Assembly (NCBI GenBank): GCA_018240525.1 | Contig: JAFEFN010000013.1 | Location: forward strand, 930,001-994,000 | DNA length: 64,000 nucleotides | Direction: 5' to 3' | Origin: Pseudomonadota bacterium | Lineage (GTDB): Bacteria; Pseudomonadota; Gammaproteobacteria; Steroidobacterales; Steroidobacteraceae | Shown here: positions 14,927-18,482 of the stretch, in pieces | Layout of the letters: each line of letters starts with the position of its first letter | Numbering within the stretch: position 1 is the stretch's first letter | Position numbers and translations under genes: made by a program | The notes under the pieces: generated by a model | What the model saw: the letters and a program-made list of their open reading frames with translations, nothing else | Database searches by the model: none | What the model was told of the DNA's origin: nothing

Positions 14927-15727
14927 TCAGCGCGGCAGGACCGGCACGCAGGCCTGCGCCTGCTCCTTCAGTGAATCGCACAGCGCACGCGCCTCGGCTT
15001 CGCCGGCGGTCGGTGTCTGCAGGCGGTACAGGGCGCCGGAGCTGGTGCTGGCGATGACGATGCGCGGGGACTTGCCCTGCAGCTGCGCGGCGAAGCGGCC
15101 CTGCAGGCGCTCCCACTCGCGGCCCGCGCTGGCCTGGCTGCCGAAGGCGCCGAGCTGGATCCCGTAGCCGCCGCCGACGCGGGTGGTGGCGATCGCGCGC
15201 GTCTCCTCGCTGGCCGGCGCCGGCTGCGCCTCATCTTCCCGCCGCGCGGCCAGGACTGCAGCTGCGGCAGGCACCGCCTCCTGCGCAGGGGCGGGCGTTG
15301 CGGCGGTGGCGGCCGGCGCGGCGGTGCCGGTGGCCAGCTGCAGCGCGCGCACGCCCACGCGGGCGGCCGACACCGGACCCTCGCGCGGCGCGTGCGGGGC
15401 GGAGCCGAGCGAAAATCCCTCGATGCGGATGCGCGCTTCCTCGGTCCATTTGCCGTGCGGATGCTCGGCGAGGAACCTGCGGTAGGCGTCCACCGTGCCG
15501 ATGCCGTCGGCGCGCTGCCACTCGCGGTCCTCGTCCAGCTGCGCGATGCGGGCCTGGGCCTGCCGGGCCAGCTCGCTGTCGGCGTGCTGCTCGAGGAAGT
15601 GGCGGTACGCCTCGGCGGTGTCGGCGGACTCGGCGGAATGCCAGTCCTGCTGCTCGCGGCTGCACCCGGCGGCCAGGGCCGTCAGCAGCGCGATAAGCAT
15701 CACCCGGGGTGCCCAGACTGTGATCAT
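14927..15727 (-). CDS. SPOR-domain lipoprotein
   Basis: 266 residues from ATG at 15727. The first 22 residues form a lipoprotein signal (MLIALLTALAAGC), so the mature protein starts at that Cys. Two repeats follow, AEAYRHFLEQHADSELARQAQARI and VDAYRRFLAEHPHGKWTEEARIRI (about residues 38-100), TPR-like outer-membrane lipoprotein units. A long Ala/Pro linker leads to a C-terminal SPOR domain (about 190-266, GGYGIQLGAFGSQASAGREWERL) that binds denuded septal peptidoglycan. A role at the division site or in envelope maintenance is likely. It is divergent from the bactofilin gene, which also fits cell-shape work. Confidence 0.85.
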   Translation of the reverse strand: MITVWAPRVMLIALLTALAAGCSREQQDWHSAESADTAEAYRHFLEQHADSELARQAQARIAQLDEDREWQRADGIGTVDAYRRFLAEHPHGKWTEEARIRIEGFSLGSAPHAPREGPVSAARVGVRALQLATGTAAPAATAATPAPAQEAVPAAAAVLAARREDEAQPAPASEETRAIATTRVGGGYGIQLGAFGSQASAGREWERLQGRFAAQLQGKSPRIVIASTSSGALYRLQTPTAGEAEARALCDSLKEQAQACVPVLPR

Positions 15728-15789
15728 GGTCGGCCTTTTACGGCTCTTTGGACACGTATTATGACTGGGCAGTTCCCCTGGAGCACCGG

Positions 15790-16182
15790 ATGAATGACAA
15801 GCGGCGGCTGATCGACCAGATCGGCGATTCACCGACCTTTGTCGCCGAGGGCGTCCGCCTGACGGGCGACCTGGAGACCCCCGGCCCGCTGGTGGTGTGC
15901 GGCACCCTGCGCGGGGATGGCCGTGTCGGGGGCACCCTGCACATGTCCGTCACGGCCCAGTGGGAGGGGGAGATCCACGCCGCGGCCGCCGTGATCGCCG
16001 GCCGGATCACCGGGCGGCTGGTCATCGAGGGCAAGCTGGAGGTGGCCGCCACCGCCGTGATCCGCGCCGACATCGACGCCCGCAACATCGCGGTCGCCAA
16101 GGGCGCCGTCATCGACGGCGTCGTCACCGTCACCAGCGGCCAGCCGGTCGTGCAGTTCGAGGAAAAGCGGCACGCGAAGTAA
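15790..16182 (+). CDS. bactofilin (polymer-forming cytoskeletal protein)
   Basis: 130 residues from ATG at 15790, preceded by GGAG at 7-8 bases. The central part is a right-handed beta-helix of short repeats (GPLVVCGTLRGDGRVGGTLHMS, then AAAAVIAGRITGRLVIEGKL), the DUF583 signature, with short charged ends. Bactofilins polymerise without nucleotide at the inner membrane face and position cell-wall enzymes. A TATTAT -10-like box at 15757-15762 could drive the gene. The divergent neighbour is a SPOR lipoprotein, so the pair may act together in envelope shape. Confidence 0.9.
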   Translation: MNDKRRLIDQIGDSPTFVAEGVRLTGDLETPGPLVVCGTLRGDGRVGGTLHMSVTAQWEGEIHAAAAVIAGRITGRLVIEGKLEVAATAVIRADIDARNIAVAKGAVIDGVVTVTSGQPVVQFEEKRHAK

Positions 16183-16191
16183 CCCCGCGCT

Positions 16192-17271
16192 TCAGGTCGC
16201 GCTGGCGAGCCGCTCCTCGGCCACCGTGCCGGCCCCGAGCAGGCCGAGGATCCGCCGCTCGAGCCAGGTCGGCCCCGACAGGTGCTCGAAAAAACCGCAA
16301 TGACCGCCGTGGCGCGTGATGGTCAGCGTCAGCGCCGGCGGCCGCGCCAGCTGCTCCAGCCCGTTCGGCGGGATGATCGGGTCATCCAGCGAGGTGATGA
16401 TGTGCGAGGGCACCTCCAGGTCCGCCAGGCGCGTCCCGGTGATGGCATACCCGTTCAGGTAGTCCTCGAGCGAGGCGAAGTCGGTGTAGCGGCGCACCAG
16501 CTCGTCGGTCATGTGGGTGAGGTTGCGCTGGGCAAAGTCGCCGAAGTCGTAGTGCTCCGGCCACGCGGCCTGCTTCTTCACCAGCGAGCGCATCCACTTG
16601 CGCACGAAGTACGCCTCGTAGCCGGGGATGCTCTTCTGCAGCGCCCTGAGGGTGGCGACCGGGTCAAGCACCGGGGAGACGGCCACCACGCGCGCGATCT
16701 GCAGCTTGGCCGCGCGCGCCTGCGCGGCCACGCGCAGCCAGAAGTTGCCGCCGAGGGAGAATCCGGCCAGCTGCAGCGCGCGGTGCGGGAAGTGCTGCTG
16801 CAGCGATCGCACCGCCCCGATCACCTCCGGCAGCAGGCAGGAGTGGAACAGGCCGCGGTTCAGCTGGTGGGTCTCGCCGTGATCGCGCAGGTTCAGCCGC
16901 ACCACGTCGAAGCCGCGGGCGAAGAAGCGCTGCGCGAGCGAGAGGATGTACAGCGAGTCGGCGCTTCCCTCCCAGCCGTGCATGAGCACGACCGGCAGCC
17001 CGCCGCTGCGGGCGGGGCGCGAGACGAAGCACTGCAGGCGCACCCCGTCGCCACAGTCGAGCAGCACCTCGCGCGCGGCCGCGAGCAGCGGCTGCGCGCG
17101 CGCCAGCACGCGGCCGCGGCGCCAGGAGGTGCTGGAGAGGATCGACTGGACGTGATGGTTGCGCAGCCACCAGGGTGGCCGGAAGTCATCATCGGCGGTC
17201 GGCGCGAGCAGGCTTGAGTTCAACGCAGGCGGATTTCTATGCGGTTGTTGGCGCTTGCCGCGCGGTTCCAT
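16192..17271 (-). CDS. YheT-family alpha/beta hydrolase
   Basis: 359 residues from ATG at 17271, which overlaps the upstream gene by 52 bases. A TTG at 17223, inside that gene's stop codon, would give 343 residues. Family marks are FRPPWWLRNHHVQSIL near the N-terminus, PVVLMHGWEGSADS, the nucleophile elbow GFSLGGN, the acid in SLDDPIIPP and the final His in RHGGHCGFFE. YheT-type enzymes are cytoplasmic esterases of uncertain substrate, related to eukaryotic ABHD1/3 proteins. It is translationally linked to the membrane receiver-domain gene. Confidence 0.92.
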   Translation of the reverse strand: MEPRGKRQQPHRNPPALNSSLLAPTADDDFRPPWWLRNHHVQSILSSTSWRRGRVLARAQPLLAAAREVLLDCGDGVRLQCFVSRPARSGGLPVVLMHGWEGSADSLYILSLAQRFFARGFDVVRLNLRDHGETHQLNRGLFHSCLLPEVIGAVRSLQQHFPHRALQLAGFSLGGNFWLRVAAQARAAKLQIARVVAVSPVLDPVATLRALQKSIPGYEAYFVRKWMRSLVKKQAAWPEHYDFGDFAQRNLTHMTDELVRRYTDFASLEDYLNGYAITGTRLADLEVPSHIITSLDDPIIPPNGLEQLARPPALTLTITRHGGHCGFFEHLSGPTWLERRILGLLGAGTVAEERLASAT

Positions 17272-18482
17272 TCGCCCGCCGTCAGGTAAGTCCCCGGTGG
17301 CGGATAGGGCGCGACCAGGTTGGCAGGATCGCCCACCGAGGCCTCAACATCCAGTGCCCCGTGGGTGGAGCTGCGGATGTCACCGATCAGGTTGACCAGC
17401 GGCAACGGCACGCGCTGCATGGCCGTGAGCGCCTCGTCGGCCGGGTTGCCGACCACGTCGCAGCGCGCGTACGGCATCTCCTCGGGCGCCACGGAATAGC
17501 CCTCGGCGGCGCTGCCCACCATGCAGAAGCGCCCCGCGTAGGACTTGATCTCGACGAGGCCGGTGGTGCCCTGGCGCGCCAGGCGGTAGAGCAGCTTGCT
17601 GATGACCTCCAGGCGCGGGCCGCCGAAGGCATCCGCTCCGTAGGGCACCAGTGCACTGAGCAGCCGGGTCTCGACCGCGTGCGCGGGCGCGGTCGCGGCG
17701 GCGACCGGGAGCGCCGGCTGCGGCGCGCTCGCCGCCGGCGCGCTGCGCAGCTGCGCGAGCTGCACCCCCAGGGATTCCAGCGCCCGCTCGCTGCGCCACC
17801 ACAGCGCGGTGCTCGCCAGCGCCACGGCGAGGGCGAGGCCGGCGATCGCCCACGCCCAGGGGGTGGGCGGCGCCGGCGGCGGCAGCGGCTCGGCCGGCGG
17901 CGGCAGGGTCTCGCGCAGCGAGGCGCGCACCTCGGCGGTGATGCGGTCGGTCTGCGTGTCGACCACGGCGATGAGTGCGCGGCGCAGCTCCGCGAAGTGC
18001 TCGCGCAGGGTGCTGTCGGTGAGCGGGCGGGTGCCGGTGGGCGTGTGCTCGAAGGCCACGGCGGCGGGACCGACGGGCGTGAAGCTCGACTGCTCGGGGA
18101 TGCGGCGGTCGGGCACCAGGTGCAGCTGGTAGAGCACCTTGGAGACGTCGGCGGGCTTGATCTGCTTGGGCAGCACGCCCAGGGCGCCCAGGGCGCGCGC
18201 CTGCCCCAGGTAAAGCTCACCCTCCTGGGAGGTGTACATCATGATGGGGATGGTGGCGGTGCGCGGGTCGTTCTTGATCGCCTGCACCGCCTGCAGGCCA
18301 TCCATGCCCGGCATCTGGTGATCCATGAAGATCACGTCGGGCCGGTTGCTGCTGAGGTAGTCGATGGCCGCCTCGGCGGTCTCGGCAGAGTCGACGTCGA
18401 TCTCGAAGTCCTGCAGCACCCGGGCGAGGAACAGGCGCGCGGACTTCGAATCGTCCACGATCAACGCCCGCTTTGCGCCCAT
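17220..18482 (-). CDS. membrane-anchored response-regulator receiver protein
   Basis: 420 residues from ATG at 18482 (GGAG 6 bases upstream). Residues 4-120 are a complete receiver domain: acidic pair in LIVDDSKSA, phospho-acceptor Asp54 in IFMDHQMPGMDG, and Lys in VLPKQIKPAD. A linker with a Pro-rich stretch ending near 207 precedes one transmembrane helix (about 209-229, WAWAIAGLALAVALASTALWW). The last 190 residues should then be periplasmic and contain two Cys. No output domain such as HTH, GGDEF or kinase is present. Receivers fused to a periplasmic domain are uncommon. The C-terminal part recalls OmpA-like or envelope domains only vaguely. Function unknown. Confidence 0.75.
   Translation of the reverse strand: MGAKRALIVDDSKSARLFLARVLQDFEIDVDSAETAEAAIDYLSSNRPDVIFMDHQMPGMDGLQAVQAIKNDPRTATIPIMMYTSQEGELYLGQARALGALGVLPKQIKPADVSKVLYQLHLVPDRRIPEQSSFTPVGPAAVAFEHTPTGTRPLTDSTLREHFAELRRALIAVVDTQTDRITAEVRASLRETLPPPAEPLPPPAPPTPWAWAIAGLALAVALASTALWWRSERALESLGVQLAQLRSAPAASAPQPALPVAAATAPAHAVETRLLSALVPYGADAFGGPRLEVISKLLYRLARQGTTGLVEIKSYAGRFCMVGSAAEGYSVAPEEMPYARCDVVGNPADEALTAMQRVPLPLVNLIGDIRSSTHGALDVEASVGDPANLVAPYPPPGTYLTAGEWNRAASANNRIEIRLR

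Follow-up and report, generated by a model that had tools for sequence, protein, structure and literature searches.

The gene considered here lies on the reverse strand of the window (the whole 64,000-nucleotide stretch of Steroidobacteraceae DNA that was analysed) and occupies one open reading frame, 17220-18482(-), which starts with ATG and encodes 420 amino acids plus a stop codon (Table 1). A sequence-only reading of this DNA had placed a gene for a membrane-bound receiver protein at this position, and since its relatives are 34-77% identical over the whole protein, the gene is not a product of chance. Response_reg (residues 7-115, E 8e-24) was the only Pfam family above cut-off in the 420-aa protein, and no DNA-binding, enzymatic or kinase domain was found above cut-off, in agreement with the earlier claim that such an output is absent. 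NCBIfam gave partial receiver matches only, the best 25 of 94 all lying far under their cut-offs. The Pro-rich linker, the single helix and the approximately 190 C-terminal residues described before are likewise present in the sequence. The full-length AlphaFold2 model consists of the receiver (5-119), a helix (156-192), a long helix (209-247) and an outer domain (274-419), with long disordered and Pro-rich linkers; its pTM of 0.45 is low, and the placement of the domains relative to one another is therefore not fixed.

Table 1. Positions of the genes, domains and residues discussed (window coordinates unless a locus is named).
Feature	Position	Strand	Basis or remark
Response regulator gene (receiver, helix, Pro-rich linker, transmembrane helix, OmpA-like domain)	17220..18482	-	420 aa
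Receiver domain, residues 5-119	18126..18470	-	Pfam Response_reg E 8e-24; five active-site residues in 81/81
D54 codon of the receiver	18321-18323	-	
Val103 codon of the receiver	18174-18176	-	
Predicted cytoplasmic helix 156-192, putative dimerisation stalk	17907..18017	-	AlphaFold2 model
Pro-rich linker, residues 193-208	17859..17906	-	Sequence
Single hydrophobic helix, predicted transmembrane, about residues 209-229	17796..17858	-	KD at least 1.6 in 80/81; model
C-terminal OmpA-like domain (predicted), residues 274-419, b-a-b-[insert]-a-b-a-b	17226..17663	-	AlphaFold2; Foldseek; VIA-align
Cys320-Cys341 pair in the insert, spacing 21, probable disulfide	17460..17525	-	Conservation 81/81
YheT-like alpha/beta hydrolase, overlapping the receiver gene	16192..17271	-	Start ATG 17271 or TTG at the TTGA overlap
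Bactofilin, convergent neighbour	15748..16182	+	Pfam PF04519; functional link with the receiver putative
SPOR-domain protein, wall-related neighbour	14927-15832	-	Pfam E 6.7e-10; in 36/80 loci
Pil-Chp-type chemosensory cluster	L166 5937-15217 (own genome, C8)		Two receiver proteins, CheW protein, MCP, 1861-aa kinase

The longest frame of the hydrolase gene begins with the ATG at 17271 and shares 52 nt with the receiver gene; an in-frame TTG that overlaps the receiver stop codon (TTGA) could equally well be the start. In 14 of the 32 loci examined, hydrolase starts were found exclusively in overlap with the receiver gene. The extent of the overlap that had been proposed is thus either the 52 nt or that of the TTGA start. 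The link to the hydrolase holds within the order but does not extend to distant relatives. At one locus (L082, 5001-7322) the receiver frame continues in frame into the hydrolase, which may be a natural fusion or may result from a sequencing error. Counted over the 80 loci of closer relatives, up to 5 kb a side and with loci cut by contig ends included, the neighbours were the hydrolase (47), bactofilin (42), an ABC permease (38), the SPOR-domain protein (36) and a glycosyltransferase (24).

In 18 of 20 distant loci from the class-wide search the immediate neighbours, judged by eye and partly on short contigs, were varied; in the remaining two the gene caller had not picked the receiver gene. 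A possible hydrolase was seen in one of the 18 loci read, a locus of the same family. In view of this variation in the loci read, a conserved operon partner was set aside as an explanation. No kinase gene adjoins the receiver gene in the window, and none was seen in the distant loci read. Among the more distant loci, bactofilin follows the receiver gene directly and convergently in eight (L083, L085, L088, L089, L092, L094, L102 and L104), in two of which it is confirmed by Pfam. The convergent bactofilin gene thus stays near the receiver gene across distant lineages, yet convergent genes share no promoter.

Receiver domain and distribution of the family

A scan of contigs yielded 80 loci. Among 40 related genomes, the full protein was found in 16, the genome of the window included; the other 24 showed generic receivers only. 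The 81 full-length proteins from these two sources were aligned. The scan loci, all from metagenome assemblies, are assigned to Steroidobacteraceae, Woeseiaceae, Nevskiaceae, unclassified Gammaproteobacteria or Proteobacteria or, for a few, to other bins. Of the 369 genomes sampled from the class, 25 were found to carry the outer domain, so that the architecture, which the sequence-only reading had suggested looking for elsewhere, does recur. In the sample of the phylum it was present in 2 of 398 genomes, namely the genome of the window and one genome of the same class that had already been found. Among the 26 matches of the class-wide search, 24 carry a receiver motif in the same frame, and the frames of the other two end at contig ends; in every case where the contig extends far enough, the outer domain is fused to a receiver.

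The receiver is a complete CheY-like domain with Asp54 as phospho-acceptor, as had been stated before: D10, D11, D54, T84 and K106, which make up a complete acidic pocket, are identical in all 81 family members. A switch aromatic equivalent to Tyr106 of CheY is common in receivers, but not universal. The corresponding position is residue 103, three residues before K106, which is an invariant Val in the family, while the acidic pocket is intact. Without the switch aromatic, the coupling between phosphorylation and output may be unusual, or phosphorylation may not be read out at all.

Membrane helix and outer domain

The segment at about residues 209-229 reaches a Kyte-Doolittle (KD) hydrophobicity of at least 1.6 over 19 residues in 80 of the 81 members, and in the AlphaFold2 model the helix extends beyond residue 229 to 247. 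A charged residue falls within the hydrophobic helix in four members, and a second segment of equal hydrophobicity exists elsewhere in the protein in one. No cysteines are conserved apart from Cys320 and Cys341 (81/81), both of which are located in the C-terminal domain; their spacing of 21 was found in all 26 matches of the class-wide search. The confinement of this conserved pair to the outer domain is as expected of a periplasmic disulfide. Together, the conserved hydrophobic helix, the two invariant cysteines and the OmpA-like predicted fold described below support a topology with the receiver inside and the C-terminal domain outside the inner membrane. The positive-inside rule adds no support, because the cytoplasmic side of the helix is not enriched in K/R (mean 1.95 for the 20 residues preceding the helix versus 2.59 for those following it). 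The periplasmic location previously proposed for the C-terminal part is therefore favoured by helix, cysteines and predicted fold, but not by charge distribution.

The C-terminal domain of the window protein matched no Pfam family at E<=1. When the C-terminal domains of 73 relatives were searched, only weak and scattered matches were obtained, and PF00691 was not among the families listed (25 of 38, including all families with at least two members). Two candidate identities were set aside: a known Pfam or NCBIfam family, to which no match was obtained, and a sequence relative of a solved structure, for which there was no credible match. The AlphaFold2 model of the outer domain, built from 73 sequences, has a mean pLDDT of 90.6 and the secondary-structure order b-a-b-(hairpin insert)-a-b-a-b, in which strand 2 and helix 2 are separated by an insert of approximately 44 residues that bears C320 and C341. 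The structure prediction that had been suggested for these residues thus gave an OmpA-like fold, with modest match scores. In Foldseek against the PDB the first rank was Acinetobacter baumannii OmpA (3td5, E 0.012, prob 0.97), and nearly all matches listed were OmpA-like (TagL, MotB, OmpA, Pal and others). The best VIA-align match was Pal (4g4w, Z 6.7, 98 residues, 3.7 A), and the best 50 rows consisted almost wholly of OmpA, Pal, MotB and related anchors, with a DegV protein as one clear exception; YfiB was among the structural matches of both programs. None of the matches passes E 0.001 in Foldseek or Z 8 in VIA-align, and the VIA-align Z-scores fall where chance resemblances occur.

The matches converge on one fold, cover the whole domain and share the same terminal motif, and for these reasons the domain is called divergent OmpA-like. 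This motif, NNR[VI]E at 412-416 (N412 in 79, N413 in 75, R414 in 81, V/I415 in 76 and E416 in 70 of 81 members), matches NRRVE of OmpA and was the sole stretch aligned in local hhalign (P 0.02). When the profile of the domain was compared with nine OmpA domains from the genome of the window, only 12 columns aligned, at the extreme end, so the homology to OmpA is based on the predicted fold, the topology and the motif. Compared with OmpA/Pal (PF00691), with which it shares the predicted b-a-b-a-b-a-b fold, the domain differs in its insert, in the missing Pfam match and, apparently, at the positions that contact diaminopimelate (DAP). According to a published account of PapS, the Arg contacting DAP is required in that protein (PMC11369160). 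The outer domain appears to be without this usual Arg, as in a secondary-structure register set by eye the position falls on residue 362 (F in 59, L in 21 and V in 1 of 81 members); in the same kind of register, the DAP-binding Asp after strand 2 corresponds to G317 (76/81). These apparent substitutions make canonical wall binding by the outer domain doubtful. R290, W405 and R414 are invariant and R357 is invariant or nearly so, and these four residues could form another binding site.

Relation to Pil-Chp-type systems

The genome of the window gave 52 receiver matches; stretches covering most of them were analysed, and 41 domains passed the filter for a tree. When the receiver profile of the family was compared with these 41 domains, the top three scored 74.6, 73.7 and 65.4 bits and the next one 56.6 bits. 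The top three are the three receivers of a single chemosensory cluster, and in the tree they join the family, together with two further receivers, at 91/94, a support under the strict mark. The 1861-residue kinase of this cluster contains Hpt (four stretches), H-kinase_dim, HATPase and CheW domains and a C-terminal receiver. We take the gene arrangement to be that of Pil-Chp systems. The names follow a published description of Pil-Chp (PMC12632253). Under these names, the closest receivers to the family in its own genome are those of PilG, PilH and ChpA. In this genome, the proteins resembling PilG and PilH (196 and 121 aa) comprise a receiver and little else; in contrast, the family protein is encoded outside the cluster, has a membrane helix and an outer domain in addition to its receiver, and is without the switch aromatic.

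ChpA-like kinases (E<=1e-119) co-occur with the family, being found in 23 of 25 family-bearing genomes and in 154 of 344 others (odds ratio 14, Fisher p 3e-6; cut-off chosen by eye after viewing the table). A stricter cut-off of 1e-160 gave 22/25 versus 120/344. The flagellar protein FlhA was used as a control for whether any motility gene co-occurs with the family, and was found in 19/25 versus 183/344 genomes (odds ratio 2.8, p 0.036; counted by eye, as was the kinase table). As FlhA also co-occurs, if weakly, part of the ChpA signal may reflect lifestyle. Genome G231 gave no strong ChpA-like match (2.6e-66 only) and is a fragmented assembly of 320 contigs; G378, which is 71% complete, gave none at 1e-60. 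Related genomes are not independent, and because shared ancestry and lifestyle inflate the co-occurrence figures, the link to Pil-Chp is regarded as a lead. On these sequence comparisons, the receiver of the family is perhaps an extra Pil-Chp output.

Possible function at the cell envelope

The usual targets of response regulators are intracellular: DNA, enzymes or partner proteins. For the protein studied here, the sequence-only reading suggested that phosphorylation inside the cell could change an activity outside the membrane. We tentatively prefer a reading of this kind, which we consider plausible while standing short of calling it probable: the protein would be an orphan response regulator anchored in the inner membrane, whose OmpA-like periplasmic domain is altered through phosphorylation by a Pil-Chp-type kinase. 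Asp54 would be phosphorylated by a histidine kinase, for which the large CheA-like enzyme of the Pil-Chp-type system is the likeliest candidate, and the phosphorylated receiver would change its dimer state. This change would be relayed through helix 156-192 and the single membrane helix to the disulfide-braced outer domain, whose grip on the cell wall or on a wall-associated partner would be altered. The protein would then be a phospho-controlled link from the inner membrane to the envelope. The same data also fit a static tether or an inward signal.

The main rival to this outward phospho-switch is the static tether, in which the OmpA-like domain fixes the receiver at a wall site, e.g., the pole, and the output stays inside as that of a localised PilG relative. 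OmpA-like domains are wall anchors, the receiver is better conserved than the periplasmic domain in the alignment of 81 proteins, and the long disordered and Pro-rich linkers would weaken the transmission of a signal. In Pseudomonas aeruginosa, the localisation of PilG is reported to depend on the hub proteins FimV and FimL (PMC12632253). However, helices 156-192 and 209-247 could carry a signal, and the invariant R290, W405 and R414 exceed what an inert anchor may need. On balance, the tether is judged unlikely, though it deserves serious consideration.

Signalling from outside to inside is improbable. In this case the periplasmic domain would sense the state of the wall or the redox state, perhaps via the Cys pair, and adjust the receiver, which would act as a phosphate sink or docking site; the invariance of the pair and the occurrence of OmpA-fold domains in periplasmic signalling proteins such as YfiB are consistent with this, but a receiver usually serves as an output part, the family has kept its acidic pocket intact and the protein is without another output domain. 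It is still less credible that the receiver is a constitutive protein-binding module that stays unphosphorylated in vivo. Such a module would agree with the loss of the switch aromatic, with the invariant Val103 and with the failure to see an adjoining kinase, but without phosphorylation the five catalytic positions would be expected to drift, and they are invariant in 81/81. That the helix is no membrane span and the whole protein cytoplasmic is very improbable, since, despite K/R residues without inside bias and a moderate KD of 1.82 in the window protein, the hydrophobic segment is kept in 80/81 members with charges in only four, and the invariant Cys pair and the OmpA-like predicted fold argue against it.

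Returning to the outward phospho-switch, its parts can be compared with known systems. In MotB/PomB and TagL/TssL an OmpA-like periplasmic domain comes after a single membrane helix, and the membrane helix of MotB bears a charged, proton-binding Asp. MotB and TagL are the nearest anchors in topology; in contrast to them, the family has an N-terminal receiver, a charge in the helix in only 4/81 members and a divergent outer domain with a Cys-bearing insert. The nearest inside-out logic is that of LapD, which acts on the protease LapG via a c-di-GMP-binding EAL/GGDEF module. LapD is described in a published study as an inside-out c-di-GMP receptor, in which a cytoplasmic regulatory domain controls a periplasmic output across the inner membrane (PMC3032545). 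The family protein instead combines a phospho-receiver with an OmpA-like domain, and no GGDEF or EAL domain was found by Pfam above cut-off. No description of a receiver-TM-OmpA protein was found in the open-access papers searched, which is weak evidence of absence as subscription papers lie mostly outside them.

Given a conserved family in which a receiver is joined to a wall-type domain beyond the inner membrane, inside-out phospho-signalling to the envelope could be tested directly, and an intracellular signal may act on the cell envelope via a protein of this receiver-helix-outer domain type. The family would also suggest a further candidate output for Pil-Chp-type systems in little-studied Gammaproteobacteria. 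The more specific proposal, that members of an outward-signalling family are switched by a Pil-Chp kinase between a wall-bound and a free state of their OmpA-like domain, is rather unlikely at present; if it is true, the pilus chemosensory system would gain a cell-wall-directed arm beside PilG and PilH.
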